Shown here piece after piece: positions 22,267 to 42,984 of a DNA stretch of 64,000 nt. Location: contig NZ_BJDU01000002.1 in assembly GCF_005405305.1 (NCBI RefSeq), positions 62,001 through 126,000 on the forward strand. Reading direction: 5' to 3'. This stretch comes from Companilactobacillus formosensis (GTDB lineage Bacteria; Bacillota; Bacilli; Lactobacillales; Lactobacillaceae). The position numbers and the translations under genes were made by a program. The notes under the pieces are model-generated. The model saw only the letters and a program-made list of their open reading frames with translations, was not told the DNA's origin and made no database searches. Each line of letters begins with the position of its first letter. Within the stretch, counting starts at the first letter, position 1.

Positions 22267-24141
<1,875 letters not shown>

Positions 24142-24206
24142 AAAATCACCTCATGTATTTGTTTCACCGGTGTACGTGAAGTAATTTACGTCATTTTTAA
24201 TAGTTA

Positions 24207-24220
24207 TACAAGCGCTTTCA
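24207..24220. promoter_or_regulatory. Candidate cre (CcpA) site
   Basis: On the reverse strand TGAAAGCGCTTGTA matches 12 of 14 consensus positions. It lies in the divergent PTS/GH1 intergenic region. Confidence 0.55.
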
Positions 24221-24227
24221 TACAAAT

Positions 24228-24242
24228 AGGAACGGCGTTCCT
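24228..24242. promoter_or_regulatory. Palindromic operator between PTS and GH1
   Basis: AGGAACGGCGTTCCT is a perfect inverted repeat of 7-bp arms around one G, in the divergent control region of the PTS and GH1 genes. Likely the target of the RpiR-type regulator encoded after GH1 (inference). Confidence 0.55.
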
Positions 24243-24301
24243 TAATTAGTGTCGAAAATCGTATAATTACGAAACAACCTGGGATTTTTAGTGCTATCTA
24301 G

Positions 24302-25840
<1,539 letters not shown>

Positions 25841-25860
25841 CTTTTATGGGGGGTATATAG

Positions 25861-26750
25861 ATGGCTTTGATTGAAGAATTGGAAGAAATATCTGTTACAG
25901 AAACTAACGCAAAGAAGTATATTGCTGAATTTTTACTTAAAGAGAAAGAACACATTGGTAATTATTCTATGCAACAAATTGCTGATCAGACGTTTACATC
26001 GAAATCGACACTCTTTCGATTTGCTCAAAGTCTTAATTACTCAGGATGGAAAGAATTTATGCAAACTTTTTAGAAGAAATTACCTATGTAAATAAGCACT
26101 ATTCAGATATTGACCCTAATTTACCTTTTTTAGCGGGAGAATCAACAGATTCAATTATTGAAAAATTGACTGAGATACAAATAGAGAGTCTCAGGAACAC
26201 TACTGATTTGGTAGATGTTTCTATCCTTAATATGGCAGTAGATAGAATTCTAAATGCTAATAAGCATATTATTTTATTTGGAATAAGTCCTAATAATTTG
26301 ATGGGAGAACTATTAAGAAGAAAATTAGAAAGTATTGGAATTATTGTAGCTATTGCCAATACAGATGAAGGTGGATCATTGGCTGCAGCTATGGATAAAG
26401 GAGATTGTGCAATACTTGTATCTTATTCTGGAAATAATTCATCTAGAGAGCCCATGAGATTTGTTGATATTTTGAAAAAGAATCATGTTAATTTAATCGC
26501 CATTACAAGTTCTGAGGATAATTACCTTAGAAAAAATGTCGATTGCTGTTTGACCATTTCTTCCAGAGAAAAGCTGTATAGCAAAATCGGTAATTTTACG
26601 ACTGAAGAATCGATTATTCATATTTTTAATTTAATATATGCCTCTTGTTTTGCTAGAAATTTTATACATAATTACGAATATAAGGTTAAGAATTCTGAGA
26701 ATTTTGAATATAGAAGAAATGCTTCTACGTTTAATATAAAAGAAAAATGA
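25861..26750 (+). pseudogene. RpiR/MurR-family regulator, frameshifted
   Basis: Two frames form one 296-residue RpiR regulator. The first (25861-26073) gives the HTH_6 domain (YSMQQIADQTFTSKSTLFRFAQ); the second (conserved from about 26070 to 26750) gives the SIS sugar-phosphate-binding domain (HIILFGISPNNLM, then CAILVSYSGNNSSREPM). The break is in a run of five T (26067-26071); six T would join EFMQTF to LEEITYVNKHY. Starts 20 bases after GH1 with GGGGGG upstream, so it is in the GH1 operon and probably controlled the flanking PTS and GH1. Confidence 0.85.
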
Positions 26751-26796
26751 AAATGATTTTTGAATCAATACGTTATTACATTATTTATAAAAATCA

Positions 26797-26832
26797 AAAA
26801 ACATCCCTCTCGCACAATTTAGGGATGTTTTT
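26797..26832. terminator. Bidirectional terminator between RpiR and LysR genes
   Basis: 12-bp perfect stem (26797-26808 with 26821-26832), A-run on the left, T-run on the right, between convergent genes. Confidence 0.88.
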
Positions 26833-26837
26833 GTATT

Positions 26838-27701
26838 TTAATGATTCTTTGCAAGTGAATAATCAATAAATTTTTCCTTTAATTTCTGATTTTGATTATT
26901 ATCAAGATAGCATAAGCTTATTTTTGCAATAGTATTTGGAACAACTGGTATTTTTACAATCTCATTATCTTCTGGAACTAAATTACTCATCAATAAAGAA
27001 ATTCCAAATCCATTCTTTACAAATTCTACAATATTTTCTATAAACCTATCTGCATATACAATATTTGGTGTGAACCCCTGACTCTTGCACAATTCAACGC
27101 ATAGTTTATAAGGACGAGAATTTACCGGTTCAAATATAAAATCTTCGTCCTTTAAATCTGAGATAGTTATTACTTTAGATTTTGCTAGTGGATGCGTTAT
27201 CGGCAAAACAGCTACTAGTTGATCACGTTTATAAAAAATATTTTTAAGCTTTTTACTTTCAATGTTTTTTATAAATGCAACATCTAATTCATTATTTAAT
27301 AATTCTTTTTCCAGAGTACTACTTTGGTTAGTAGATATTTTACAATGAACACCTGTATCATTCATAAAATCCATTATTAAATCCAATATTCCATAATCGG
27401 CTACGGATGGTATGCCACCAATCCTCAAAGAAACTTCTTCTGATAAAGATTTCCTTATGGCGCTATCACATTCATCTTGCAAAATACTTATTTGCTTTGC
27501 ATAATCATAATAAATTTTTCCATATTTGGTTAATGAAGTACCTGTCGGTGTTCTTAGGAATAATTTAGTACCCATGTTGGATTCTAATTTCATTATATTT
27601 TTAGATAAACTAGATTGCGTAACGTACAACGAAGCGGCCGCATCAGAAAAGTTATTATATTCTGCCAAAGCTAAAAAACTATCCAAATATCTTAAATTCA
27701 T
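26838..27701 (-). CDS. LysR-family transcriptional regulator
   Basis: 287 residues: N-terminal winged helix-turn-helix (MNLRYLDSFLALAEYNNFSD, then AASLYVTQSSLSKNIMKLE) and a LysR substrate-binding domain from about residue 90. The start is ATG 27699-27701 with GAGGG upstream; six extra codons before it lack a ribosome site. It is divergent from the ceramidase-like/PTS/amidohydrolase operon and by the usual LysR layout controls it and itself. The co-inducer is unknown. Confidence 0.92.
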   Translation of the reverse strand: MNLRYLDSFLALAEYNNFSDAAASLYVTQSSLSKNIMKLESNMGTKLFLRTPTGTSLTKYGKIYYDYAKQISILQDECDSAIRKSLSEEVSLRIGGIPSVADYGILDLIMDFMNDTGVHCKISTNQSSTLEKELLNNELDVAFIKNIESKKLKNIFYKRDQLVAVLPITHPLAKSKVITISDLKDEDFIFEPVNSRPYKLCVELCKSQGFTPNIVYADRFIENIVEFVKNGFGISLLMSNLVPEDNEIVKIPVVPNTIAKISLCYLDNNQNQKLKEKFIDYSLAKNH

Positions 27702-27744
27702 ATCTATACCCTCTATCATTCCTATTAAGAATACAGTATATTCC

Positions 27745-27768
27745 TACTTTGAATTGAGAGTCAAAGTA
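27745..27768. promoter_or_regulatory. LysR-type operator (inverted repeat)
   Basis: TACTTTGA and TCAAAGTA form a perfect 8-bp inverted repeat with an 8-base spacer, centred in the 140-base region between the divergent LysR gene and the operon it faces. Confidence 0.65.
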
Positions 27769-27792
27769 ATTCAAGTAATAATAGAAGCGTAA

Positions 27793-27806
27793 AGAAAACG
27801 CTTACT
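27793..27806. promoter_or_regulatory. Candidate cre (CcpA) site
   Basis: AGAAAACGCTTACT keeps 12 of 14 consensus positions including the central CG; 35 bases before the first operon gene. Confidence 0.5.
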
Positions 27807-27841
27807 TAGATAAGTGGAATACTTTTGGAAGGGAGAGAAAA

Positions 27842-29077
27842 ATGAAGGAAAGAGTAAAAGTAGGATTTGGGAAAAGTATAATCAAAATTAATGATGAAGA
27901 CCTTCCCATACGGGAGTTCGCTAGTAAATTAACAGATTTATATACAAGAGTGATTTTCCTAAAAAATGATTCGTCAAAACTAAAAATATTAGTATCCATT
28001 GAAATGACATCCTTAACGCAGAGAGATATTAATAAATTTAAAGAATTAATTTGTAATAAGTATAATACCGATTCAAAAAACATTTGGATTACCGTAACGC
28101 ATACTTTTTCAGCTCCACATTTAAAACATGATATTTCTAATACAGACGATAAAAAAGTTTATAAATTTTGGATAGAAAAGATTGAAACCAGTTTAAAGGA
28201 ATCGTGTAATGAAGCGTTTTTGGATTTACAATTCGTTAAAATTTCATACAACTCAATTTATTGTCCGTTAAATATTAATCGAAATATAGAAACTGCACAA
28301 GGATGGTGGCTAGGTCGCAATTTTAAAGCTTTTAGCAATCATATGTTAAAAACCATTGTATTTGAGAAAGCTAATGGGACAAAGAATCTAATATTTAATT
28401 TTGATATGCAACCGAGTGTGTTTGATCATATTTCAAATGACAATAACCAGAGAGTCATTGCTAGCGATATTTTTGGTATTGCTGCTACTCATGTAGAAAA
28501 TCGTTATTCCAACATTGTTTTCCCACTAATAGGTGCAGCAGGTGATCAAAGGCCACTTATTGTTGCAGATAATAGTCATTCATATGCAGTTAACAGACAG
28601 CTATTATTTGAACAATCCAGCTTATTGAAAGATGCAATATTGCAATCGGTTAATAGCAATAAAACAACTGAATTGGATAGATTTGATATATTTGAGGTTA
28701 ATCTAATTTTATCTGGTCAAATTCAACAACATGGGACTTTTGATTTGAGTCCTACGCATGATTACAAATTCTTGAAATCTGAAACACCAATTAAAGCAAA
28801 TATATTTGCTCTACAATTAAATGATATTCTCGTTTTAGGAACTCAACCCGAGCTGAACAGTTCATTTGCCAACAAATTTATTAAAAGAATTAATTGTTCA
28901 AAAGTAATTATGTCAACATTGGTTAATGGTGGTCTTAAATATTTACCAGAAAAAAAGGATTTTGAAAGAATTACTTATGAAGCAATGAATACTAGTCTTG
29001 GCCAAAATGCAGATGAAGAATTCTTAAGAGTATCAGAAGAAATCAATATTAAATTAAAGGAGGGAAAATCTTGTTAA
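27842..29077 (+). CDS. Neutral-ceramidase-like protein (divergent), operon gene 1
   Basis: 411 residues resembling the N-terminal domain of neutral/alkaline ceramidase-like proteins: an N-terminal beta region (KVGFGKSIIKI), the histidine motif TVTHTFSAPH at about 84-93, and IGAAGDQRPL corresponding to the family's GxxGDqxP. The second histidine of the family HxH motif (THTHSGP) is Phe89 here, so a metal ligand may be missing. No signal peptide; cytoplasmic, unlike classical secreted ceramidases. It overlaps the next gene by 7 bases. Family members include amidases and uncharacterised hydrolases; the substrate is unknown. Confidence 0.62.
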   Translation: MKERVKVGFGKSIIKINDEDLPIREFASKLTDLYTRVIFLKNDSSKLKILVSIEMTSLTQRDINKFKELICNKYNTDSKNIWITVTHTFSAPHLKHDISNTDDKKVYKFWIEKIETSLKESCNEAFLDLQFVKISYNSIYCPLNINRNIETAQGWWLGRNFKAFSNHMLKTIVFEKANGTKNLIFNFDMQPSVFDHISNDNNQRVIASDIFGIAATHVENRYSNIVFPLIGAAGDQRPLIVADNSHSYAVNRQLLFEQSSLLKDAILQSVNSNKTTELDRFDIFEVNLILSGQIQQHGTFDLSPTHDYKFLKSETPIKANIFALQLNDILVLGTQPELNSSFANKFIKRINCSKVIMSTLVNGGLKYLPEKKDFERITYEAMNTSLGQNADEEFLRVSEEINIKLKEGKSC

Positions 29078-30315
29078 TTGGACATGGAAGAATCGATATA
29101 ACACCAAGTGGAACATTTTACTTACTTGGATATAAGAATCCTATGAGAAATGATCCAGCTAAGGGTGTACATGATCACATTTTTATTAATGGTCTATTAT
29201 TCCATAACTCAAAAGGTGAAGAGTGTTTTCTAGCAACAGGGGATCTTTTGGAACTAGAAGACATTGTTGCAGCAGATATTCGTCAGAAAATCAGTTCTAA
29301 ATTCAATATTGCAATGGAAAATATTGTAATTGGGGTAACTCACGATCATCATTCTGTTCGTGATTATCATCGGACTTGGGAATTTGGCAAATACAATCAG
29401 AAATATTATGACTTCTTCGTCGATTCCTTCGTTAAATTATTTGACCAATGTAAAAAGTCATTGATAAATGTAACAGTTCAATATGGTCAAAAATTGGTAT
29501 TAGGTTATTACAGTAATAGAAATCATAAAGGTCAACAATCAGATAATATTGTCTCTGTAACTAAATTTATCCATGAGGGCAAAGCAATTGCTGGGATTGT
29601 AAATTTAGCAGTTCATTCGACAGTGTTGAGTGCCAATAATATGTATTTAACGGGAGATTTATCCGGAAATCTTTCAAAAGAGCTTTATAATTCTTGGGGA
29701 TTTTATCCTTTGATGCTTGTAGGTTGTGCTGCCGATTCTAGTAACCACTATGATAGGCAAGGTAAAGATTTTGATGAACTTCAAAGGGTCGTTATAGGAT
29801 TGTCAAAGTCCATTTCAACAATCGATACTTCTAAAACCATTAACATGGTCTCAGACAATATCCATGTAATTACTCAATCACAAGAAGTAATTAGTGATAA
29901 GCAAAGTTATGATCGTGATTTAAAAGAAACAATTCAAGAACTAGAAAATGGAACAAAGAAAATCGTTGGCTCTCAAACACCCAAAGAAATAATAAATAAA
30001 TGTGAAAACCAATTATCGGAGCCACAATTTCATGATGTTATTTCGATGGAAATTTTAGATATTGGAGATTTGAGAATTTTTGTTTTCCCAGGAGAATTAG
30101 CTTCCGCAGGAGCAAAAATGTTACGTGCTTCCACTGATAAAACTGTTCTTATTGCAGGCTATTCCAATGGGTTTCATTACTATTTTTTACAAGCAAAAGA
30201 TTACGGACTATCATTTGAAACAATCGGTAATCCAGTTCCAGCTGGAACCTTTGAGGAAATCATTTCTAAATTTGTTCTTGGCAGTCGAATGCTTGATGTT
30301 TACGAGAAGAATTAA
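29071..30315 (+). CDS. Neutral-ceramidase-like protein, operon gene 2
   Basis: 414 residues of the same superfamily as the preceding gene. It begins GHGRIDITPSGTFYLLGY, has GVHDHIFINGLLF, and keeps the histidine motif complete as VTHDHHS (His91 and His93), plus VFPGELASAG and AGYSNGFHYYF near the C-terminus, all typical of the ceramidase-like N-terminal fold. It probably carries the active site of the pair. No signal peptide or membrane segment. The TTG/ATG start region overlaps gene 1 by 7 bases with AGGAGGG just upstream, so the two products are made together and may form a complex (inference). Confidence 0.7.
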   Translation: MLIGHGRIDITPSGTFYLLGYKNPMRNDPAKGVHDHIFINGLLFHNSKGEECFLATGDLLELEDIVAADIRQKISSKFNIAMENIVIGVTHDHHSVRDYHRTWEFGKYNQKYYDFFVDSFVKLFDQCKKSLINVTVQYGQKLVLGYYSNRNHKGQQSDNIVSVTKFIHEGKAIAGIVNLAVHSTVLSANNMYLTGDLSGNLSKELYNSWGFYPLMLVGCAADSSNHYDRQGKDFDELQRVVIGLSKSISTIDTSKTINMVSDNIHVITQSQEVISDKQSYDRDLKETIQELENGTKKIVGSQTPKEIINKCENQLSEPQFHDVISMEILDIGDLRIFVFPGELASAGAKMLRASTDKTVLIAGYSNGFHYYFLQAKDYGLSFETIGNPVPAGTFEEIISKFVLGSRMLDVYEKN

Positions 30316-30323
30316 CTATTTTT

Positions 30324-30347
30324 GAGCCGTAATCGGGGCTTCCTTTT
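30324..30347 (+). terminator. Weak hairpin between operon genes 2 and 3
   Basis: AGCC (30325-30328) can pair with GGCT (30337-30340), followed by TTCCTTTTT. A second AT-only hairpin, GATTATTT with AAATAATC (30354-30372), precedes the PTS ribosome site. May partly attenuate PTS expression; weak evidence. Confidence 0.3.
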
Positions 30348-30389
30348 TAAGTCGATTATTTTTTAAATAATCAAAAGGAGTTGTTTTTC

Positions 30390-32306
30390 ATGGACTACAA
30401 CAAATTGGGAAAGGAAATACTAACTAATGTTGGTGGAAAATCCAATGTTAAAAGTGTTATCCATTGTGCAACTAGACTTCGTTTTGTTTTAAATGATGAG
30501 TCAAAAGCAAACGATGACGTTATAAAAAATACAAATGGAGTTTTAAATGTAGTAAAGCAAGGCGGCCAATATCAAGTAGTAATTGGTCCAAGTGTTGCTA
30601 AAGTATATGATGAAATTATAAAAATTGGGAAATTCTCAACAGATATGGCAGAAAATACTAATGATTCTCACATGTCTGCTAATAAAGAAGACGATAAAGG
30701 ATTATTATCAAAAGCACTCGGATTAATCAGTTCAATATTTGTTCCTATTTTAGGCCTTCTATCTGGTGCAGGTATGATCAAAGCTGTTTTATCTGTATGT
30801 ACAATCACAGGATGGTTGTCTGAGAATAGTGGAACTTATCTTATATTGAATGCTCTAGGAGATGTATTATTCTACTTTTTCCCAGTAGTAATTGGATGGA
30901 GTGCTGCTAGAAAATTCGGATTGAAAGAAATATATGGTATTACTTTAGGCGCCTTTCTTTTGTACCCAACAATTGTTTCTGCAGCAAGTAGTAAGGCGGT
31001 TACTACAATATTTAAAGGTACAATTTTTGCTTTAAAATATAAGGAAACGTTTTTGGGTATTCCCGTAGCTTTACAAAGTTATTCAAGTACTGTTATTCCA
31101 ATAATTATTATTGTTTGGTTTGCAAGTTATATAGAAAAATTTCTTGATAAAAAAATGCCAGATGTTTTAAAAATGGTCTTTGTTCCATTCTTTACGTTGT
31201 TAATTGTCGGATCACTAAGTTTGATTGTTATTGGACCAATTGCAATGATTCTACAAAATATTTTAAGTGATACTGTTCTTTGGTTAGTTGGTCTGAACAA
31301 AGGTATCGCCGGATTCTTCCTTGGATCATTATGGAGTATCTTAGTTATGTTTGGTTTACACTGGGCTGTTATTCCATTCTTTGCAATTGATGTTGCTCAC
31401 TACGGCTACGACATTATCAACCCTCTTATTTTTTCTGGAGCATTGGCAGTTTTGGGTTCTGCACTAGGTGTCGCCATCCGTACTAAGAATGAAGATACTA
31501 GATCAATGTCCGTGGCTGCTGCTATTTCCTCATTTTTTGGCGTAAGTGAACCAGCATTATACGGTGTCTTAATTCCAAGAAAGTGGATTTTAATCACCTC
31601 ATTTACCGGTGCCGGACTTGGCGGTGCAATCGCTGGTCTATCGGGTTCTAAATTATATGAATTTGGTGCTAATGGTATTTTAGGCCTTCCATGTTTTATT
31701 AATCCTAAGGGAATTGATTTCGGTTTCATTGGATTGTGTATTGGTGGTATTGTTGCATTTGGTTTTGCTTTGGTTTCAGCTTTAATGATTGGCGATAAGA
31801 AAGAAGAATCTGGGGCTCTTTCAAAAAAAGGTGCAAAGAAAAAAGCTAAAAAATCTATTATTTCTTCACCAGTCAAAGGCCAGGCAATCGATTTAACTTC
31901 AGTAAATGACGATGTGTTCTCACAATTAACTTTAGGAGATGGAATTGCAATCATTCCGAGTGAAGGCAAAGTCTATTCTCCTGTAGATGGAATCATTAGA
32001 GTTGCTTACCCAACTGGACATGCTGTAGGTATAGCTGCTAATGATGGGGAAGAATTATTGATTCATATCGGAATTGATACCGTTAACTTACAAGGTAAAT
32101 ATTTTACAAGTCATATAGTGCAAGGCATGAAAGTCAAAAAGGGTGATTTATTAGTAGATTTCGATTTAAATAAAATCAAGGCCGAAGGATATGATCCAAC
32201 GGTTATGGTTATTGTTACGAAAAATGAAAAATTAAAGTCTGTAGTACCTTTTGAAACTGGTCCCGTTTCAAATGGGGATAAAGTTCTAAATGTTAATTTG
32301 AATTAA
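30390..32306 (+). CDS. PTS beta-glucoside-type transporter EIIBCA, operon gene 3
   Basis: 638-residue membrane permease that imports and phosphorylates a sugar. EIIB has Cys26 in VIHCATRLRF; EIIC spans about residues 100-470 with about ten helices; a short Lys-rich linker leads to EIIA with His559 in LLIHIGID. The start is ATG 30390, 9 bases after AAAAGGAG, not the upstream in-frame TTG at 30381. All phosphorylation sites are intact. It lies in an operon without a glycosidase of its own, so the imported phospho-sugar may be processed by the ceramidase-like proteins or the amidohydrolase, or by the GH1 enzymes on either side. Confidence 0.93.
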   Translation: MDYNKLGKEILTNVGGKSNVKSVIHCATRLRFVLNDESKANDDVIKNTNGVLNVVKQGGQYQVVIGPSVAKVYDEIIKIGKFSTDMAENTNDSHMSANKEDDKGLLSKALGLISSIFVPILGLLSGAGMIKAVLSVCTITGWLSENSGTYLILNALGDVLFYFFPVVIGWSAARKFGLKEIYGITLGAFLLYPTIVSAASSKAVTTIFKGTIFALKYKETFLGIPVALQSYSSTVIPIIIIVWFASYIEKFLDKKMPDVLKMVFVPFFTLLIVGSLSLIVIGPIAMILQNILSDTVLWLVGLNKGIAGFFLGSLWSILVMFGLHWAVIPFFAIDVAHYGYDIINPLIFSGALAVLGSALGVAIRTKNEDTRSMSVAAAISSFFGVSEPALYGVLIPRKWILITSFTGAGLGGAIAGLSGSKLYEFGANGILGLPCFINPKGIDFGFIGLCIGGIVAFGFALVSALMIGDKKEESGALSKKGAKKKAKKSIISSPVKGQAIDLTSVNDDVFSQLTLGDGIAIIPSEGKVYSPVDGIIRVAYPTGHAVGIAANDGEELLIHIGIDTVNLQGKYFTSHIVQGMKVKKGDLLVDFDLNKIKAEGYDPTVMVIVTKNEKLKSVVPFETGPVSNGDKVLNVNLN

Positions 32307-32324
32307 AAGATTGGAGTGATTTAT

Positions 32325-33347
32325 TTGATTATTGATGCAAATATGTACTGGCTTCCTGATGAATTATTTACAAATGATGGTATTCTTAATCATTTTTTAA
32401 AAGTCATTAATAGTCATAATGATACTAAAGCTTATAGTACAATTTTAGATGATGGTTCAAAAAAAATTACTATCGAAAAACCTATCGGACAACCTAGCTT
32501 AGATTATTTTCAAAATGATTATTTAATGGATAAACAAATTTCTGATATGGACGAGGGTAATATTGATATTGGACTTTTAAAATTACCAGGTTGCCAAGAA
32601 TGGCTAGATTTGGACTTATGCAAGATTTTCAATCGTGATTTAGCAAAACATGTTGAGGAAAGTAGTGGAAGAATGTATGGTTTAGCTGTAGTTCCTCCGT
32701 ATGGTACAGATGAAAATTTAAGTGAATTAGATTTTGCAATAAATTCATTGGGCTTAAAAGGCGTTCAATTATCCACACACTATAACGATGGATATTTAGA
32801 TAATAAAATGTATCGTTCGTTTTTAAAAAAAGTGGCCGAAATGAATATCCCAGTGTATGTGCATCATACACCAGTTCCTATTGAATATGATTCAATTAAA
32901 GACTTTGAAAATCTAAGAAGATCATACGGTCGTTGTGAAGATCAAATAATTGCTATTGGTAGAGAAGTATTTAGTGATTTATTTGAAGACATTCCTAACT
33001 TGAAGTTAATTCATTCAATGCTTGGTGGGGGATTCTTTACATATAAAACTATGCTATTGCCACATGATTCGGGAAATGGGAGATTTGATACCGATATTTC
33101 TGATATTCAACAGAGAATGGAAAATAATATTTATTATGAAATTTCCCATGCTCAACCTTGGGGTGAAGACAATTTAGAGATTGCTTCAAAAGTTCTTGGT
33201 TCAAAGAATATTATTTATGGATCATCATATCCTGTTAAAAAATCATGGTTAGTCGATGGTCCATCGGTTGTTCAAAATTTGGATTTAACATCTACAGATA
33301 AAGAAAACATACTGGTAAAGAACTCAAAAAATATTTATCATATCTAA
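32325..33347 (+). CDS. Amidohydrolase-2 family protein, operon gene 4
   Basis: 340 residues resembling the ACMSD-like branch of the amidohydrolase superfamily: a predicted TIM barrel with VHHTPVPIEYD, KLIHSMLGGGFF and the C-terminal NIIYGSSYPVKKS, which corresponds to the family's F-GSD-P segment. The normal N-terminal metal motif HxH is replaced by DANMYW and the terminal Asp by Ser, so metal binding may be altered. I chose TTG 32325, 8 bases after GGAG; the GTG at 32316 overlaps that ribosome site. Expected reactions of the branch are hydrolysis or decarboxylation; no specific substrate can be named. Confidence 0.7.
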   Translation: MIIDANMYWLPDELFTNDGILNHFLKVINSHNDTKAYSTILDDGSKKITIEKPIGQPSLDYFQNDYLMDKQISDMDEGNIDIGLLKLPGCQEWLDLDLCKIFNRDLAKHVEESSGRMYGLAVVPPYGTDENLSELDFAINSLGLKGVQLSTHYNDGYLDNKMYRSFLKKVAEMNIPVYVHHTPVPIEYDSIKDFENLRRSYGRCEDQIIAIGREVFSDLFEDIPNLKLIHSMLGGGFFTYKTMLLPHDSGNGRFDTDISDIQQRMENNIYYEISHAQPWGEDNLEIASKVLGSKNIIYGSSYPVKKSWLVDGPSVVQNLDLTSTDKENILVKNSKNIYHI

Positions 33348-33354
33348 TGAAATA

Positions 33355-33406
33355 AGGAGATAACCACATTCACATATCTATTGTGAATGTGGTTGTCTCC
33401 TTTTTA
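33355..33406. terminator. Strong bidirectional terminator
   Basis: Long stem (33355-33375 with 33383-33403, one mismatch) and T-run, between the converging amidohydrolase and GH1 genes. Confidence 0.92.
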
Positions 33407-33419
33407 TTCATCATAAATT

Positions 33420-34874
<1,455 letters not shown>

Positions 34875-36728
34875 CTAATTTAATGTTAAATTAATTGCTA
34901 AATCACTATTTGTATCTAATTCTGGTTCAACTTTGTAGTCCTTACTATTTAGAACAATCATCATAACAGTGTTGTCAAAGCCAGCTTCGGCAATTTTTTC
35001 ATAATCAAAATCAATTAGCTCTTGACCTTGACTGACAGTGTCACCATCTTTGACCAGGCTCTTAAAGTATTTACCTTTCAAATTAACAGTGTCGATTCCT
35101 AAGTGGATAAGTACTTGGGTACCAAAACTATCAGTAATTCCAATTGCGTGGTTAGTAGGGAACGTAGCTGTAATTTTTCCCGAAACAGGAGCAATCACTT
35201 TATTGGATGTTGGTACAATTGCAATTCCTTTTCCCATCTTTTCTGAGGAGAATACTTCATCGTTGACATTAGATAGGGAGGTCTTAGTACCACTAACAGG
35301 CATGATCAATTCATCATGATCAGATGTTTGAATAGTTTCTGTATTATTATCATTTGATTGTTCAGCTTCGACACCTTTTAATCCGAATAAATATGTTAAG
35401 ACAGCTGCACCAATGAAACTAACAGCTAAACCAATCATTTCTCCAACAAAACCATGACCTAAGTATGTAGGGATGGAAAGTAAACTTGGAAAAGCAAAGG
35501 CATGAGCTTGTGTTCCAGCAAGTCCAATGATGATTCCACCAATGGCACTGCTTGCAATAGCAATGTAGAATGGTTTCTTATATTTCAAAGTAACACCATA
35601 AAGAGTTGGTTCAGTAATACCAAAGATGGCTGCGATAAATGCAGAACCAGATACTTGTTTCATTTTCTTATTCTTGGTTTTCAAGAATACACCTAATGCC
35701 GCACCTGCTTGTGAAAATACAGCAGCACAAGCAATAGGGAAGATAGGATCAACACCTTGATTAGAAATATTACTCATAATCAAAGGTAAGATCATCCAAT
35801 GGAAACCAAACATTACGATGACTTGCCATAAACCACCAATAATGATTCCGGCAAGGATAGCGGCGTGATTATAGATTCCCATGATTGAACCAGCTAAAGC
35901 ATTACTGATTGTTGCTCCAATAGGGCCAACTACTATCAAAGTAAGTGGAACCATAATAACTAATTCCAGTAGAGCAACGAAAACATATTTCAAACTATTT
36001 GGAATAATCTTATTAAGCAATGGCTCTAAGTAGCTCAAAATCCAAATTGATAGCATGATAGGAATAACTGATGAAGTGTAACTCATTGGAATTACAGGAA
36101 TCCCTAAGAAATGTAGCGTTGTGTTGTTAGTTGCTAAAGCAACGATATTTGGATAAACAAGTGCTCCGGCAATCGCAACACTGACAAATCTGTCAACGTG
36201 TAATTGTTTAGCAGCTGTAAAGGCGATGAACATGGGTAAGAAGTAGAACAATGAATCACTAGCAGCGTTTAAAATAATGTATGTTCCACTTTTTGCACTT
36301 AACCAACCTACAGTAGAAAATAATGCTAAAGCACCTTTCAAAACTCCGGCACCACAGATGGCACCTAAGAATGGCATGAATAAACTGGAAATGAATGAAA
36401 TAAATCTATTCAATAATCCTAAAATACCTTTTTTCTTTGGCTCATCTTCTGAAGTCTCGGTTAATGAACTTGCATCAGCGGGAACTCCATCTAATTTTAT
36501 AAATTCGTTATATAAATCTGCGACTTGAGTTCCGATAACTATTTGAAACTGTTCACGGCTATAAACAACTTGAATAACACCATCTAATACTTCAATTTTC
36601 TTTTGTTGAACTTTGTCTGGATCATTAACATTGAATCTTAATCTAGTAGCGCAATGCCAGACTTTTTTAATATTCTTCGGTCCGCCCATTAACGTTAGGA
36701 TCTGCTTTGCGAGATCGTGGTATGACAT
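34875..36728 (-). CDS. PTS beta-glucoside transporter EIIBCA
   Basis: 617-residue permease with all three domains intact: EIIB Cys26 in WHCATRLRF, EIIC (about 100-460, about ten helices), EIIA His542 in VLIHLGID. The start ATG 36726-36728 follows GGAGGG; the longer frame reaching 36827 crosses the operator region and has no ribosome site. Imports and phosphorylates a beta-glucoside such as cellobiose, arbutin or salicin for the GH1 enzyme that follows (inference). Confidence 0.94.
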   Translation of the reverse strand: MSYHDLAKQILTLMGGPKNIKKVWHCATRLRFNVNDPDKVQQKKIEVLDGVIQVVYSREQFQIVIGTQVADLYNEFIKLDGVPADASSLTETSEDEPKKKGILGLLNRFISFISSLFMPFLGAICGAGVLKGALALFSTVGWLSAKSGTYIILNAASDSLFYFLPMFIAFTAAKQLHVDRFVSVAIAGALVYPNIVALATNNTTLHFLGIPVIPMSYTSSVIPIMLSIWILSYLEPLLNKIIPNSLKYVFVALLELVIMVPLTLIVVGPIGATISNALAGSIMGIYNHAAILAGIIIGGLWQVIVMFGFHWMILPLIMSNISNQGVDPIFPIACAAVFSQAGAALGVFLKTKNKKMKQVSGSAFIAAIFGITEPTLYGVTLKYKKPFYIAIASSAIGGIIIGLAGTQAHAFAFPSLLSIPTYLGHGFVGEMIGLAVSFIGAAVLTYLFGLKGVEAEQSNDNNTETIQTSDHDELIMPVSGTKTSLSNVNDEVFSSEKMGKGIAIVPTSNKVIAPVSGKITATFPTNHAIGITDSFGTQVLIHLGIDTVNLKGKYFKSLVKDGDTVSQGQELIDFDYEKIAEAGFDNTVMMIVLNSKDYKVEPELDTNSDLAINLTLN

Positions 36729-36763
36729 ATTAATTCCCTCCAATGCGTTTTTGTTATCTTCGT

Positions 36764-36779
36764 ATGGAACCGGTTCCAT
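36764..36779. promoter_or_regulatory. Palindromic operator O1 of the PTS-GH1 unit
   Basis: ATGGAACCGGTTCCAT is a perfect 16-bp palindrome with the central CG of LacI-family operators, 36 bases before the PTS start codon. Likely bound by the LacI protein encoded next door. Confidence 0.7.
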
Positions 36780-36799
36780 CCAACGACAATATAGTACAT

Positions 36800-36817
36800 C
36801 GTGGGAATATTCCCACG
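36800..36817. promoter_or_regulatory. Palindromic operator O2 of the PTS-GH1 unit
   Basis: CGTGGGAATATTCCCACG is a perfect 18-bp palindrome 20 bases upstream of O1. A TATATT reading toward the PTS gene lies between them, so O2 would cover the -35 region and O1 the start of the transcript. Confidence 0.6.
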
Positions 36818-36834
36818 TCAAGAGCAAAATAAAA

Positions 36835-36858
36835 AAGAATTATAAAAAGTTATAATCC
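36835..36858 (-). terminator. Possible terminator of the LacI gene
   Basis: Read on the reverse strand, an AT-rich stem (ATTATAA with TATAAT) is followed by a T6 run, just after the LacI stop. Low stem stability. Confidence 0.45.
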
Positions 36859-36862
36859 TTTC

Positions 36863-37828
36863 TTAGCAAGTGGTTCGTATGATTAGCTTTGGAGTAATTT
36901 TTATTTCTTCAAATTTTTTATTTTCCAAGCGTGAAATTATATTATTAATACAATTAATGGCCTGAATCTCTAAATAAGTATCAACTGTTGAGATATTCAT
37001 GTATTTACCAAAATCACTATTATCAAATCCGAATACTTTAACATCCCTTGGAACATCAACCTGATATTCTCTGAGAGTAGAGATAAAGTCCGCTGCTACA
37101 TAGTCTGAATATGCTAAAACAACTTTTGGTGGATTGATGGTCTTTAAATATGTCAAAGCTGCCTGTCTTCCGGCACCGCCTTGTTCAGGGAAGTATAGTT
37201 GCCAATTATTATCAGTGCAAGGGTAGTCATGTTCAAATTCATTAATGGCTTTTATTCTGGCTTTAGTATTACTTTTTTTACGATCATTTAAAATATGTCC
37301 AATGCTATCAACTTCATAAGTATTCTCTATATATAACAATATCTGTTTGTATAGTGGGTAATGATCTATGTATGAAGAATAAATTGAACAGCTATCAATT
37401 CTTCTCCAAGTAGAAATAGGCCCGTATTTAGCAAACTCTTTGATGGTGTTCCATCCATTTCTTGTGGAAACTAAAAACAATCCATCTAAAACGTGCAGCT
37501 TTAAATAATTTAAAACGCTGAGTTCTTGTTCTTTATCCTTAGTGAAATAAACGTTTACACTGTATCCTTTTTCCTCAGCAATGTGTGTTATATAACTCAA
37601 TAAAGACCCAACGGCAGGATAATAACTAGTGGCAACAAAACCAATGATATTAGTCTTTTGTTGTCGCATTTGTCTGGCTAATATATTAGGTACATAGCCT
37701 AGTTCGTCAGCAGCAGCGATAATTTTTTGCCTACTTTTTTCAGATACGTGGCGTGATCCACTAAAGACTCGAGAAACGGTTGACTTGGAAACATTTGCTT
37801 TTTTTGCAACATCAAATATATTTGTCAA
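36863..37828 (-). CDS. LacI-family transcriptional regulator
   Basis: 321 residues: helix-turn-helix NIFDVAKKANVSKSTVSRVF at 3-22 and a periplasmic-binding-protein-like sugar domain (IIGFVATSYYPAVGS onward, ending with VFGFDNSDFGKYMNISTVDT region). The start is TTG, supported by a very strong AAGGAGG 7 bases upstream and by the exact family start at the HTH. It lies just upstream of, and in the same direction as, the PTS-GH1 pair, with two perfect palindromes between; it most likely represses that operon. Confidence 0.92.
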   Translation of the reverse strand: MTNIFDVAKKANVSKSTVSRVFSGSRHVSEKSRQKIIAAADELGYVPNILARQMRQQKTNIIGFVATSYYPAVGSLLSYITHIAEEKGYSVNVYFTKDKEQELSVLNYLKLHVLDGLFLVSTRNGWNTIKEFAKYGPISTWRRIDSCSIYSSYIDHYPLYKQILLYIENTYEVDSIGHILNDRKKSNTKARIKAINEFEHDYPCTDNNWQLYFPEQGGAGRQAALTYLKTINPPKVVLAYSDYVAADFISTLREYQVDVPRDVKVFGFDNSDFGKYMNISTVDTYLEIQAINCINNIISRLENKKFEEIKITPKLIIRTTC

Positions 37829-37992
37829 TTTTTTCCTCCTTAGACAGAGCTAATACCACGATTATAGTATAAATATGTGTTTTATAAGTTTGGCTTTTTA
37901 GATATATTTTATAAAATAAATAAATTAAAAATTAAATAACAACAAATAAGCATAAATAAATTAAGTAATTTTTAATATCTAAAATTAAATTA

Positions 37993-38006
37993 TGTTAACG
38001 TTTGCA
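37993..38006. promoter_or_regulatory. cre (CcpA) site upstream of the polysaccharide lyase
   Basis: On the reverse strand TGCAAACGTTAACA matches 13 of 14 consensus positions; 105 bases before the lyase start in the 282-base intergenic region, where I see nothing else certain. Confidence 0.65.
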
Positions 38007-38110
38007 TACAAATGATATTGGTAATACATTATGTACATATTTGATAATCATAAATTAGAGGGCTTGATTATTTAAATATATATTTAATATTAAGAGGGGA
38101 ATTCTTAATC

Positions 38111-40858
38111 ATGAAAACTAGATACATGGTTTATATAGGTACTATTTTATCAGCGTTATCAATACAATCCACTACAGTTTCTGCTGATGAAACCAAGGAG
38201 AATGGAAATCAATTAGCACAAGCATCAGAATCAACTTCTGTTATTCAAAGTCAGAAAAATAATTCTAAAACTGATGTTAATGGTGAAAAAAATCTTTTTG
38301 AAGATTCTTCAGCACAAAATGAGAACATTCAAAATAACAATTTGAATAACAAAAATAGTGCTCGAAATTCTATTGATGCTAATAATAGAGCGATTATTTA
38401 TACTCAACAGGGTCGGACGGATAACAACCGACAAACGGATATACATAGCTTAGTCTCTTCCAACAAAGTATCTAATAATAATAGTTTATCTAATGTCACT
38501 AATAATTCGAACGATAATTCGGATAAAATAGTTAGTTATTCAAAATCTCAAAATGATACTAACAACCAATATTTCGATCAAATGCTACAATCATGGAAAG
38601 ATGTAACCGTTGGAGACCGGTACTATAAGTCTAATAACAATGAAATGAATCAAATCGCTGCACAACAGGATAAGAATATTAAAAATCTCTGGACTAGCAT
38701 GGATAAGAGTTCCGATAGAGAAAATCTTTGGAATGGAGCGGAAGAATTAACTACATCAGCACATATTACAACTGATTATAGAAATCTAGAAGCACTTGCC
38801 ATTGCAACATCCAATCCAGGATCACAATATTATAACAATCCTGAACTAATTGCGGATGTAGTAAATGGTTTTGAGTGGTTGAATATTAACAAATATAACC
38901 AAAATATTAAAGCTTATGGAAATTGGTGGGATTGGGAGATTGGTACTCCTTTATTTATTAATAATATTGTTACTGTGATGAAGCCATATCTAACTGAAAA
39001 GCAAATCCAAAATTCCATGGATGCAATTAATTTCTTCGTACCGGATCCTGATTATTTCAGAGGTAGTATATATCCTCAATGGAAGGCAGAAGCTACCGGT
39101 GCTAATCAGGTAGATATTAGTAAAGTTAAGATTATTCAAGCTTTGATTGAAAAAGATGAAGTTGGTTTAAAAAAAGCAATTAATGCTATGGAGAAGGTTT
39201 TTCCAATAGTTACATCCGGAGAAGGATTTTATCCAGATGGATCATTTATTCAACATGAGAACGTTGGTTACAATGGCTCTTACGGAAATGTTCTTATAGA
39301 TGGGGTATCACAATTACTAGGGATACTTTCTAATACGCCATATAATTTGAGTTCTGATTCCATGGCTTCCGTTGATTTCTGGGTAGAAAAAGGATTTTCA
39401 CCATTTATTTATAAAGGAAATTTAATGGATATGGTTAGAGGTAGAGCAATTTCTAGGGGAACATTTCAGTCTAATGTAGCTGCTGTAGACTTAATTAGAT
39501 CACTTACTAGAGTCGTTGATACTTATCAAAATCCAGAAAAAGCAAAATTTCAAAGTCTTATTAAGTATTGGTTGAGCTTTGGGGATAATTATCAAAACTA
39601 TTTAAAGCAGATGACAAATTATCGTGATGTTGCACTAATTGAGAATATTATGAATGATCCCTCCATTGAAGCCAAAGATTATCAGGATAACGAACTATAC
39701 AATTTTAAGAATATGGATAAAATCTTACTAAAGAATAAACAACACAACTACGCTGTTGGTATTACGATGTCTTCAAATAGAATCAAACGTTACGAATCTT
39801 TGAATAACGAAAATACTCATGGTTGGTATACAGGTGATGGTATGGTTTTTGTTTATAACGACGATGCCAACCAATTTAATGACAATTACTGGGCAACTGT
39901 TGATCCCCAAAAATTACCTGGTACAACTGAAACAAACGCACCACAAAAAATTGGTAGTGGTACAACAACTTCATCTAAGTCATTTGTTGGGGCTTCAACA
40001 TTTGGAAATATAGGCGCTATAGGTAATGTAGGATCGATTGCAATGGATTTTGTAAATAACGATAACAATTTAACTGCTCACAAATCCTGGTTTTTAATGA
40101 AGAATGGCATTGCAGCCTTGGGAAGTAATATTCAGAATACCTCATCATATAAAGCTTTTACTTACATTGACAATAGAAAGCTAAACGATTCTTCGAATTA
40201 TAAACTTTATGTTAATGGCGGTCTTATTCAAACACCATTAAATAAGATAAATGAATTAAAGAATGTTTATTCTATTTACTTAGAATCTAATGTTCAAGGT
40301 GAATCCATAGGATATAAATTCATAACTCCACAAGATTTAAACTTAGGATTGGTTGAACGTAAAGGTTCTTGGTCAGAAATCAATAAAGCTCAGAGTAGAA
40401 ATGAATATTTGAGGAAATATTTAGAAATATATGTTGAACATACTTCTAAAAATAATAAATATAATTATGTTACATATCCTAATATTGATTTAACTGATTT
40501 TAATAAGATAAATACGCCTATAATTATAGAGAATAATGATAATATGCAAGCATTGAAGTTTGGCAATAATATCGGCGTAAATGTATTTAACGATACCAAT
40601 GAAACAGTTGAAGATATGAGCTTTTCAACTCCATTATCTTTAACAAGAATTAATAATGGTAATCAAATAATTTTTGGATTATCTGATCCAAGTCAAAATT
40701 CCAAAAATAAGTCTTTCTTTAAGTTAAAAGATACTGGGTTAAAGGTCATGGATAAAAGTCAAGGTATTCAAGCACAATTAGTTGACGGATATTGGAATAT
40801 TTCATTAAAAGAAAACGGTCACGATGGTAATACTCAAGTTTTGATTTTGAGGAAATAA
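38111..40858 (+). CDS. Secreted polysaccharide lyase family 8 (hyaluronate/xanthan lyase-like)
   Basis: 915 residues with a Sec signal peptide (cleavage expected after VSA, about residue 25), then an Asn/Ser-rich low-complexity region to about residue 155. The PL8 alpha barrel follows: NWWDWEIGTPLF at about 271, DGSFIQHENVGYNGSYG at about 377-393 with the catalytic His and Tyr, and MVRGRAISR near 443. C-terminal beta domains complete the fold. There is no LPxTG or other anchor, so it is probably released or loosely bound. It cleaves uronic-acid polysaccharides by beta-elimination; hyaluronate, chondroitin and xanthan cannot be distinguished. Single-gene unit with its own terminator. Confidence 0.88.
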   Translation: MKTRYMVYIGTILSALSIQSTTVSADETKENGNQLAQASESTSVIQSQKNNSKTDVNGEKNLFEDSSAQNENIQNNNLNNKNSARNSIDANNRAIIYTQQGRTDNNRQTDIHSLVSSNKVSNNNSLSNVTNNSNDNSDKIVSYSKSQNDTNNQYFDQMLQSWKDVTVGDRYYKSNNNEMNQIAAQQDKNIKNLWTSMDKSSDRENLWNGAEELTTSAHITTDYRNLEALAIATSNPGSQYYNNPELIADVVNGFEWLNINKYNQNIKAYGNWWDWEIGTPLFINNIVTVMKPYLTEKQIQNSMDAINFFVPDPDYFRGSIYPQWKAEATGANQVDISKVKIIQALIEKDEVGLKKAINAMEKVFPIVTSGEGFYPDGSFIQHENVGYNGSYGNVLIDGVSQLLGILSNTPYNLSSDSMASVDFWVEKGFSPFIYKGNLMDMVRGRAISRGTFQSNVAAVDLIRSLTRVVDTYQNPEKAKFQSLIKYWLSFGDNYQNYLKQMTNYRDVALIENIMNDPSIEAKDYQDNELYNFKNMDKILLKNKQHNYAVGITMSSNRIKRYESLNNENTHGWYTGDGMVFVYNDDANQFNDNYWATVDPQKLPGTTETNAPQKIGSGTTTSSKSFVGASTFGNIGAIGNVGSIAMDFVNNDNNLTAHKSWFLMKNGIAALGSNIQNTSSYKAFTYIDNRKLNDSSNYKLYVNGGLIQTPLNKINELKNVYSIYLESNVQGESIGYKFITPQDLNLGLVERKGSWSEINKAQSRNEYLRKYLEIYVEHTSKNNKYNYVTYPNIDLTDFNKINTPIIIENNDNMQALKFGNNIGVNVFNDTNETVEDMSFSTPLSLTRINNGNQIIFGLSDPSQNSKNKSFFKLKDTGLKVMDKSQGIQAQLVDGYWNISLKENGHDGNTQVLILRK

Positions 40859-40861
40859 ATA

Positions 40862-40912
40862 AAAAAGGAACATCTTACACATTTTAAGTGGGATGTTCCT
40901 TTTCTGATTTAA
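40862..40912. terminator. Bidirectional terminator
   Basis: AAAAAGGAACATC pairs with GATGTTCCTTTT across a spacer that pairs further; it lies between the convergent lyase and LacI-hybrid genes. Confidence 0.85.
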
Positions 40913-42984
40913 TGGCTACTTTTAGAAATTAAATTCTCACGATTCAAAAATAAAGTGGTATTAATGTTGATTAAAACAGAAGCAGCATCCAAATTTTTAT
41001 CGAGACCATTTTTTATTTCTTTGCCAATTATTTTTTCAAATAGAAGTGTATATAAATCAACGTTATTTGATAGTTTAGTTTTACGAATTCCATTGTGATA
41101 AAAATCAGTTGAATATGATAAGAATGGAAATTTTTCATAAATTTCACGTTCAAAGAATAAATCTTTAGCTGGAATATCACCGCCCATTAGGGCAATTTCA
41201 TGTTGGATTTGATATTGGAAAAGCCATTTGAAAAAGACAACGCAAGCCTCATTTTTATTGGAGTATTTGTTAATACCGATTAATCCGCCACCTAGAGCTG
41301 GTTTATTTCCAGGTATAGGAGCAATCCCATATTTTGCCGGATTTAAATTGTTTAGATGGTTAGAAAAACCGATCAAAATAGCAGTTTTATCATCATTGAA
41401 ATCCTTAACCTCCGAGTCCCACCAGCTTTTTATTTCGATATTACTTACTTCCCTAAGCTTTCTGTATAAATTATAAGTTTTAATAAAAATATCTGTATCA
41501 AATCGTAATCCATTTTCTGAATTATTTATGGTGCCGTTTAGCGAATAATAATATGGTAAGAATTCTGAAGCAATTAATGTGTCTGCGTTTCCCATTAACG
41601 ATAGCGATTTTACACCCTTTAATTCTGGTTCGTTTGAATCGTTAAAGAACTTTGCCAAGTTGACAAGTGATTGATAATTTATTGGGGGAATCAAGTTTTG
41701 GTTATATTTGTCTGAATACTGTTTTTTTATAATTTCATTATTAAATATTTTATTTTTGTAAAGCATAATTTGAATACTTGGATCCAATGGAAGAGCATAA
41801 GGAATTTTACCTTGATAAATATACTGATTCCAATTATTCAAACGAACCAATTCAGTTGTTAACTCTGGTATTTGATTCAGTGGACGGAAAATCTTCTTAC
41901 CAAACCAATTAAAATCACTAATATCTAGCCGAATTAAATCGTATTTTTGCCATTCATTACTGTTTAAAATTGCACGCATTTGAGGAAATTTCTTAGTAGT
42001 TAAATTGATTTTAATGTTATATTTTTGGGTCAAATCAGGAAGTAGAAATTTAATAATTCTTGAAAAAGGTGATTCTAATAATAATAGATTTAGTGAAACT
42101 GGCTTTTTATTATATGGGAATTGTTGATAGTCAGTATTATAGATATTGATAGTTAATTTTTTTTCTTGAAATTCCAACATTTTAATTAAAGAAAGAGCAA
42201 TCTTGTTGGCGGAGTAGTGGAAAACGTTTTTTTGTGTGTTGGATTCAAAGGAAACGATATTTTTTGAGCTGATTAAAATAATTTTGATTTTGTTATCTAA
42301 AGTTCTAGAAATATTTTGAAGACGATTGGCCAATTTGCTATCGAACGTGACAAAATTTCCTTGAGGATAATCAATGATTTTTTTGTAAATTTCTGTCATA
42401 TTATCATTGATAATATTAGAGTTTTCGAATTGCTTATAAAATCCCATACCAAGTTCATCTTTTATAATGAATGTCGGTTCGACAAATTTATTTTTTAGTA
42501 TTTTTAAATCAATTGATACTTGTCTAATGTTTTTATTTTTATAATTACCAATGAAAATAAGATTTTTAGGGTTATCAAGGAGTTTACTTATATCAGTCAC
42601 TGGTTCCAGATGGTTAATAATGAGAATTCCATAGAAATTTTCCCGTTTAATTTGTACAAGACATTTTTTCTCAAGTTCTAAATCATTATTTGTTTCAAAT
42701 AATTTGATAGTCAATCCAATGCTTTTTAATTCATGATATAAATTAGTATAAAAATCATTCGTATATTCATTCAATTGCGGAATCAGCAATGCAATTTGAG
42801 TGGATTTTTTTTGTCTAATTGATAACGCAGAAATGTCTCGAACATAGTTTAATTTCATGGCAGCTTGTTCGACTTTACGAATGGTATCAGCTTTTACATT
42901 CCCTCGATGGTTGAGAACATTTGATACTGTTCCTAAACTAACTTTGGCTTCTTTAGCAATATCCGTAATTGTTACTTTGCTCAT
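40909..42984 (-). CDS. LacI-type regulator fused to an extracellular solute-binding domain
   Basis: 691 residues, about twice the LacI size. Residues 4-50 are a LacI HTH (VTITDIAKEAKVSLGTVSNV); about 60-265 resemble a degenerate LacI sugar domain (QIALLIPQLNEYTNDFYTNL). From about 290 the protein is a family-1 solute-binding domain, as in sugar ABC transporters: YALPLDPSIQIMLYKNK, LIASEFLPYYYSLNG, KTAILIGFSNH, and a C-terminal VVFFKWLFQYQIQ. It has no signal peptide, so the binding domain acts inside the cell as a sensor. Divergent from the ABC-GDPD operon, whose control region holds a 24-bp perfect palindrome. AAAGGAG precedes the ATG. Confidence 0.82.
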   Translation of the reverse strand: MSKVTITDIAKEAKVSLGTVSNVLNHRGNVKADTIRKVEQAAMKLNYVRDISALSIRQKKSTQIALLIPQLNEYTNDFYTNLYHELKSIGLTIKLFETNNDLELEKKCLVQIKRENFYGILIINHLEPVTDISKLLDNPKNLIFIGNYKNKNIRQVSIDLKILKNKFVEPTFIIKDELGMGFYKQFENSNIINDNMTEIYKKIIDYPQGNFVTFDSKLANRLQNISRTLDNKIKIILISSKNIVSFESNTQKNVFHYSANKIALSLIKMLEFQEKKLTINIYNTDYQQFPYNKKPVSLNLLLLESPFSRIIKFLLPDLTQKYNIKINLTTKKFPQMRAILNSNEWQKYDLIRLDISDFNWFGKKIFRPLNQIPELTTELVRLNNWNQYIYQGKIPYALPLDPSIQIMLYKNKIFNNEIIKKQYSDKYNQNLIPPINYQSLVNLAKFFNDSNEPELKGVKSLSLMGNADTLIASEFLPYYYSLNGTINNSENGLRFDTDIFIKTYNLYRKLREVSNIEIKSWWDSEVKDFNDDKTAILIGFSNHLNNLNPAKYGIAPIPGNKPALGGGLIGINKYSNKNEACVVFFKWLFQYQIQHEIALMGGDIPAKDLFFEREIYEKFPFLSYSTDFYHNGIRKTKLSNNVDLYTLLFEKIIGKEIKNGLDKNLDAASVLININTTLFLNRENLISKSSH

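Follow-up and report, generated by a model that had tools for sequence, protein, structure and literature searches.

Operons of the bgl type combine a phosphotransferase system (PTS) permease of the EIIBCA arrangement with a family 1 glycoside hydrolase (GH1). For the chb routes, PMC12791066 describes PTS import followed by hydrolysis of the phosphorylated disaccharide and by deacetylation; the operons treated there are chb of Lacticaseibacillus paracasei and, in the introduction, chb of Escherichia coli. The locus described here lies in a stretch of 64,000 nucleotides from Companilactobacillus formosensis (contig NZ_BJDU01000002.1, positions 62,001 to 126,000), referred to at its full length as the window. 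Five of its genes, which encode a LysR-family regulator, two ceramidase-like proteins (CDA1 and CDA2), a PTS EIIBCA protein and an Amidohydro_2-family protein (AH2), form a conserved module. The set is self-contained and appears to have been gained by the window's lineage. With a probability of about 0.42, it is a mobile catabolic module whose PTS protein takes up and phosphorylates a sugar conjugate, possibly an N-acylated amino sugar, which CDA2 then cleaves in the cytoplasm. The direct basis of this proposal is the conservation of the gene set, the constant link to a PTS gene, the predicted fold of CDA1 and the residue patterns; the substrate class, its phosphorylation and the order of the reactions are inferred.

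The original prediction, made from the DNA sequence of the window, had described an operon of four genes in one direction, with short gaps or overlaps and a divergent LysR gene, and had suggested a search for the same set in other genomes. All parts were found where it had placed them; from LysR to AH2 they span 26838-33347, with CDA1-CDA2-EIIBCA-AH2 on the plus strand and the CDA1 and CDA2 reading frames overlapping by 7 bases. For the search, 26 loci were profiled over their six-frame open stretches (21 from genome contigs, four from further genomes and one from a plasmid). These loci were found through CDA2, so that its presence in 26/26 holds by construction, and the close species among them are not independent. 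AH2 and a PTS gene were likewise present in all 26, and CDA1 in 25, the remaining locus being cut by a contig end. All four structural genes are thus found in 25/26 loci, with some copies broken, and the absence of a conserved neighbourhood, which had been named as the contrary outcome, was not seen. The predicted link to LysR also stood, with a LysR-family gene in 21/26 loci; in one of these 21 the gene is truncated at the end of a contig, and several have it in a downstream position. AH2 is the last gene in the Lactobacillaceae loci, except for two of the genus Oenococcus, and elsewhere it is the first structural gene. In three of the 26 loci (Enterococcus larvae, Enterococcus innesii and Paenibacillus pinistramenti) the permease is instead a lactose/cellobiose-family EIIC that scores above the lacE cut-off; a PTS gene is kept even where the permease family switches. 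Broken copies are seen in Oenococcus oeni (EIIBCA in pieces), E. innesii (AH2, CDA1 and LysR genes all split), L042 (CDA2 split) and L058 (EIIBCA gene interrupted by open reading frames, ORFs). A secreted or lipoprotein-like extra protein of no known family joins the module in 6/26 loci (L025:5608-7101, L027:12256-14016, L036:12197-14011, L037, L038 and L041), and its relatives also occur in records named Streptococcus parasanguinis.

Both CDA proteins had been predicted to be ceramidase-like. This description holds, but the two are not equivalent, the active site being complete in CDA2 and altered in CDA1. A profile search of both proteins, as suggested earlier, placed CDA2 over the PF04734 cut-off (58.9 vs 32.1 bits), whereas CDA1 matched no Pfam family at E 0.1 and is not a PF04734 member by score. 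The CDA1 profile nevertheless matches human neutral ceramidase (E 3.7e-6), and structure prediction, another of the proposed checks, yielded a CDA1 model that matches 2zws and has the catalytic-domain fold. No NCBIfam match was obtained for CDA1 or CDA2 (for CDA2, none at E 0.01). Both proteins are short, with 411-414 residues (CDA2 414) vs 630-672 in solved ceramidase chains, and have no C-terminal extension; in agreement with the original prediction, no signal peptide was seen by eye in either. The CDA2 site residues given in Table 1, aligned to 2zws and 4wgk, are present in 22/22 homologues that were hand-picked among the 120 listed of 140 found. In the CDA1 profile (21 homologues, hand-picked among the 120 listed of 294 found), the equivalent of His99 is Phe in 21/21, and that of His204 is Gln in 20/21 and Pro in one, so that CDA1 does not carry the complete zinc site. 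For these assignments we assume the zinc ligands, the roles of the catalytic residues and the 2zws numbering commonly given for neutral ceramidase. As its neutral-ceramidase active site is complete, CDA2 is probably a zinc enzyme.

The PTS protein of the window scores over the cut-off of TIGR01995, the beta-glucoside EIIBCA model (678.9 vs 614.7). The subfamily given in the original prediction is thereby retained, but beta-glucosides as the substrate are put in question by the lactose/cellobiose-type permeases of three loci and by neighbours of ceramidase-family genes elsewhere, which point rather to amino sugars or related cyclic compounds. The assignment of AH2 to the amidohydrolase-2 proteins likewise holds for the family (PF04909, 62.6 vs 26.4), although not for the metal site. 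Among solved structures, the AH2 profile is nearest to the LigW2, LigW and ACMSD decarboxylases (E down to 3.2e-27), and its relatives there comprise the 5-carboxyvanillate, ACMSD and gamma-resorcylate decarboxylases. Metal enzymes of this family presumably have an N-terminal motif of the D-x-H-x-H type (HxH or ExH) and an Asp on the last strand. In 17/17 AH2 orthologues the N-terminal motif is D-x-N-x-Y-W (placed by eye, as the HMMER alignment starts further on), and Ser takes the place of the last-strand Asp within G-S-S-Y-P or G-T-S-Y-P (placed by the LigW2 alignment). Because DxNxY and Ser replace the metal ligands, AH2 is not a canonical metal-dependent amidohydrolase. The 15 aligned orthologues are 44-72% identical to the window's protein, and 73 columns of the 16-row alignment are invariant. 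Three arginines that do not vary, Arg197, Arg198 and Arg202 (numbering of row 1 of alignment A4), are candidate phosphate contacts.

In the window the module is a clean insertion, and the nearest congener retains the empty site. This congener (L151), chosen through the flanking RpiR-type gene at 97% identity, aligns to window 22972-26769 (93%) and 33413-41997 (91%) and has 56 bases in place of 26770-33412. Among the 36 genomes of the genus, a close CDA2 occurs in one, the window's own; five other congeners have CDA2 matches at 24-26% identity, one of which is a short fragment. Because a close CDA2 is rare in the genus, insertion in the window's lineage fits better than loss elsewhere. A family draw of 397 genomes contained 15 with a CDA2 match, nine of them at E <1e-100 with the window's own genome counted in. 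The Enterococcus raffinosus megaplasmid, the one plasmid read, carries the same five genes as a unit, with no other sugar genes directly adjacent. GC content was considered as a sign of transfer and found uninformative (31.9% in the module vs 33.5% in the remainder of the window). Membership in the module was rejected for the GH1 and EIIBCA genes on its flanks, since they belong to the backbone and are also present at the empty site. Clustered around the insertion (window 22267-37828) are a LacI-type regulator gene at 36863-37828, two genes for GH1 and a further two for PTS proteins of the beta-glucoside type. The TIGR01995 match of the beta-glucoside PTS protein at 22267-23937 (minus strand) starts only at position 66, and the protein as read is without most or all of the EIIB domain. 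The RpiR-type regulator gene at 25861-26750 (plus strand) is broken, with its helix-turn-helix and SIS parts in different frames; in the nearest congener the frame at this position is open over 296 codons.

The control region was compared in an alignment of 13 promoter stretches. The perfect TACTTTGA-N8-TCAAAGTA repeat of the original prediction is exact in the window but specific to it, as the relatives are not palindromic there and share a dyad and a promoter core instead. The palindrome was accordingly rejected as a conserved LysR operator; taken alone it is weak, because when the 122-base gap was simulated 1000 times with a Markov model, perfect arms of at least 8 appeared in 36 of the runs. 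The dyad, which lies beside LysR, is half-conserved, with ATTC in 13/13 stretches and the GAATA arm exact in 7/13. The GAATTG-N3-GTCAA core is exact in 9/13, has one mismatch in L025, is cut short in L044 and is absent from two Oenococcus-type loci. The TTG of its GAATTG opens a -35-like box, and a -10-like box follows about 17 bases further on. Since 32 promoter-like matches were found in the region against 35.2 expected, it is the position and conservation of the promoter that count, not the match itself. As for the predicted catabolite-responsive element (cre), a similar AANCGNTT site was seen by eye at the same place in 10/13 stretches, whereas the 64 kb of the window hold 74 equally good sites by what we take to be the cre consensus.

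Table 1 Features of the module and its control region (window coordinates).
Feature	Position	Strand	Basis or remark
Inserted module (LysR gene, promoter region, four structural genes, terminators)	26770..33412		Alignment with the empty site in the nearest congener
LysR-family regulator	26838..27719	-	PF00126 and PF03466 over cut-off; probable true start 27701, from starts in relatives
ATTC-N7-GAATA dyad, candidate LysR binding site	27718..27733		13-locus promoter alignment
Perfect repeat, contains the GAATTG-N3-GTCAA core	27745..27768		
Promoter-like TTGAGA-17-AATAAT	27754..27782	+	Spacing agrees with relatives
Cre-like site, candidate CcpA site	27793..27806		Two mismatches to the assumed consensus
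CDA1, ceramidase-fold protein with altered active site (H87, F89, Q190, E337, Y367)	27842..29077	+	
CDA2, ceramidase-like protein with complete active site (H91, H93, R150, H182, S224, E342, Y371)	29071..30315	+	
PTS EIIBCA, beta-glucoside subfamily	30390..32306	+	ATG 30390
AH2, Amidohydro_2-family protein without canonical metal ligands (D-x-N-x-Y-W; G-S-S-Y-P)	32325..33347	+	Probable start TTG 32325
Intrinsic terminator-like hairpin, 20 pairs, 3' of AH2	33355..33401	+	

PF04734 was found in 23/348 genomes of the phylum. A first set of neighbourhoods comprised 20 loci in 16 genomes, out of the 22 positive genomes besides the window's own; a fresh set comprised 20 loci, one per genome by E-value, of 46 positive genomes. 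One of the 46 already belonged to the first set and was not reused, and the long ceramidase of G1215 was excluded. In the first set, for which one to three examples of each neighbour family were scanned, NagA, SIS_2 isomerase, GH84 and mannose-type PTS proteins passed their cut-offs, and NagB-like and BshB1-like PIG-L proteins fell under those of NCBIfam. A Pfam tally of the fresh loci, made without the chosen markers and without a control tally, covered 133/140 ORFs (seven long ORFs of 628-860 aa were left out). After PF04734 itself, it was led by AraC-type regulators (12), DegT (10) and TIM-barrel isomerase-type proteins (9), with Gfo/Idh/MocA oxidoreductases (4) and SIS_2 and Amidohydro_1 (2 each) lower down. 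These neighbourhoods support a link of PF04734 genes to sugar metabolism, which often appears to be that of amino sugars or cyclitols. Outside the window's class, the ceramidase-family genes of L094, L100, L101 and L109 have GH84-type and SIS_2 neighbours; these neighbourhoods are candidates for an N-acetylglucosamine (GlcNAc)-related route with a ceramidase-fold enzyme.

A link between such enzymes and PTS transport recurs outside the module. The distant ceramidase-like gene CDA3, whose product has a complete active site, is present in four congeners (the fifth has a fragment) and in some other lactobacilli. All eight CDA3 loci read at length have a divergent lactose/cellobiose-type EIIC gene and then an RpiR-type regulator gene, the EIIC gene sitting between the latter and the ceramidase-like gene. 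The EIICs were assigned by Pfam and similarity, the one tested also passing the lacE cut-off, and the RpiR proteins by Pfam in three loci and similarity in eight; at L064, a ninth and weaker locus, no EIIC probe match was obtained. Because EIIC adjoins both the ceramidase-like gene and RpiR, it is suggested that the ceramidase-like protein acts directly on the PTS product. This minimal unit, in which a ceramidase-like enzyme stands with a divergent EIIC of the cellobiose type and an RpiR regulator, recurs in lactobacilli at L047-L054.

In the proposed route, LysR would sense the substrate or the product and activate the promoter at 27754-27782, and CcpA at the downstream cre-like site would shut the operon on better sugars. 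EIIBCA, judging from its family, would import and phosphorylate a sugar-like conjugate. In the cytoplasm, CDA2 would hydrolyse the phosphorylated compound at an amide bond or, with lower likelihood, at an ester bond; the group removed would most likely be the acyl residue of an N-acylated amino sugar or of a compound of the aminocyclitol type. CDA2 would thus take the role that ChbG or NagA has in the use of chitobiose or GlcNAc. CDA1 may be a diverged partner of CDA2, or else another enzyme whose site has changed. AH2 may act on the part set free, or on an intermediate further along the route, through a chemistry that dispenses with the usual metal site. Released amino-sugar phosphates could enter a common route, as the genome has three NagA-type genes over the cut-off outside the module. 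Two NagA-type genes stand side by side at G000:C1:96898-99290, and the third is on another contig.

Several observations weigh against this route. The EIIBCA protein scores as the beta-glucoside type and not as the GlcNAc or N-acetylmuramic acid type, and the module itself holds no gene for NagA, NagB, a glycosidase or a kinase. The amino-sugar chemistry is therefore drawn from distant relatives only, and amino sugars as the substrate of the module are a reasoned guess. Among these relatives, amino-sugar markers were present in 16/20 loci of the first set vs 0/19 control windows, but the markers and probes had been chosen post hoc from those loci, which are partly congeneric. The same markers gave a far weaker 5/20 vs 0/20 (p = 0.047) in the fresh set, or 5/18 vs 0/13 for stretches of at least 7.9 kb. 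Some of the control windows were short, and one control stretch did not exist. Probes for PIG-L, GH84, ABC-binding-protein and mannose-type EIIB genes found 0/20 in the fresh set, and none of the PTS probes, nor the AH2 probe, matched any of these loci. In two of the eight CDA3 loci another sugar gene adjoins the ceramidase-like gene on the side away from EIIC, GH1 in L052 and polysaccharide lyase 8 in L017/L051.

The beta-glucoside subfamily of EIIBCA would also suit a plant acyl- or aryl-glucoside, such as the glucose ester of a phenolic acid, which EIIBCA would import and CDA2 would cut at the ester, with AH2 treating the acid and LysR sensing the aromatic compound. The nearest solved relatives of AH2 are aromatic-acid decarboxylases, some carrier names hint at plant or insect sources, and beta-glucoside genes flank the insertion; these last, however, include GH1 genes of the backbone that are present at the empty site. 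The AH2 clade has moreover lost the metal site that those decarboxylases presumably need, ceramidase-family neighbours elsewhere point to amino sugars, and the permease is of another family in 3/26 loci, which makes a glucoside of this kind somewhat unlikely. Alternatively, CDA2 may open or deacylate an aminocyclitol, or another cyclic amide or lactone, that is a product or substrate of DegT, Gfo/Idh and inosose-type enzymes. Representatives of these are among the commonest PF04734 neighbours in the fresh loci, where DegT was found in 9/20 vs 0/20 controls, although the first set gave 5/20 vs 2/19. As the module itself has no DegT, Gfo/Idh or inosose-type genes and uptake of these compounds through a PTS would have to be assumed, we consider this quite unlikely.

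The lack of canonical catalytic residues in both CDA1 and AH2, together with the broken copies in a few loci, could mean that these two proteins are inactive relics or scaffolds and that CDA2 and the PTS alone matter. We assign this only a small chance, because CDA1 is kept in 25/26 and AH2 in 26/26 loci, the AH2 orthologues retain the identity and invariant columns given above, and the replacements in CDA1 are uniform, unlike the decay of a relic. The predicted fold of CDA1 and the active site of CDA2 would also befit genuine ceramidases with sphingolipids of the membrane or the diet as substrates, which is highly improbable in view of the missing NCBIfam matches and the PTS gene in every locus; ceramide was rejected as the substrate because of the short length of the proteins, the PTS partner and the lack of a signal peptide by eye.

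The original prediction could not match its pathway to a described one, and the papers that we searched likewise describe no link between ceramidase-like proteins and PTS transport. A PTS-linked catabolic operon as such is of a known kind; new here, as far as we could find, is the enzyme set. Ceramidase-like proteins of this type are annotated as 'alkaline ceramidase' or hypothetical, which hints at lipid metabolism, and the import and cleavage of a phosphorylated sugar conjugate offers a testable function in its place. CDA1 and AH2 are two protein groups that keep their fold while uniformly swapping catalytic metal residues, within a small portable operon. A wider proposal, which we regard as doubtful, is that the ceramidase-fold enzymes of Bacillota are mainly sugar amidases and that the module is their PTS-coupled branch, in which CDA2, a paralogue with an H-F-Q-E-Y pattern and a metal-free amidohydrolase-family enzyme would constitute an undescribed, glycosidase-free route to the cleavage of phosphorylated sugar conjugates.

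With neutral ceramidase (PF04734; Pseudomonas aeruginosa 2zws, human 4wgk) the module shares the catalytic-domain fold, as modelled for CDA1, and the complete site pattern of CDA2; in contrast, the CDA proteins are short, without C-terminal extension or a signal peptide discernible by eye, belong to a PTS operon and include the altered site of CDA1. AH2 resembles the Amidohydrolase-2 decarboxylases (LigW, ACMSD and gamma-resorcylate decarboxylase) in its overall sequence profile but differs throughout in having DxNxY for what is presumably a DxHxH-type motif, and Ser for the last-strand Asp. The bgl-type PTS operons have an EIIBCA of the same subfamily and a cre-like site; the module, however, is without a glycosidase and has LysR in place of antiterminator control. 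The proposed likeness to the chb and nag operons (chb as described in PMC12791066) lies in a dedicated regulator, in uptake and phosphorylation by a PTS and in the loss of an acyl group in the cytoplasm, and a cellobiose-type EIIC also serves 3/26 CDA modules. The five genes of the module include no GH170, NagA, ChbG or other known deacetylase or glycosidase, and the module, which would work like the chb route, is therefore not a member of it: deacylation would fall to a ceramidase-fold enzyme, under a LysR regulator and with CDA1 and AH2 as additional components.

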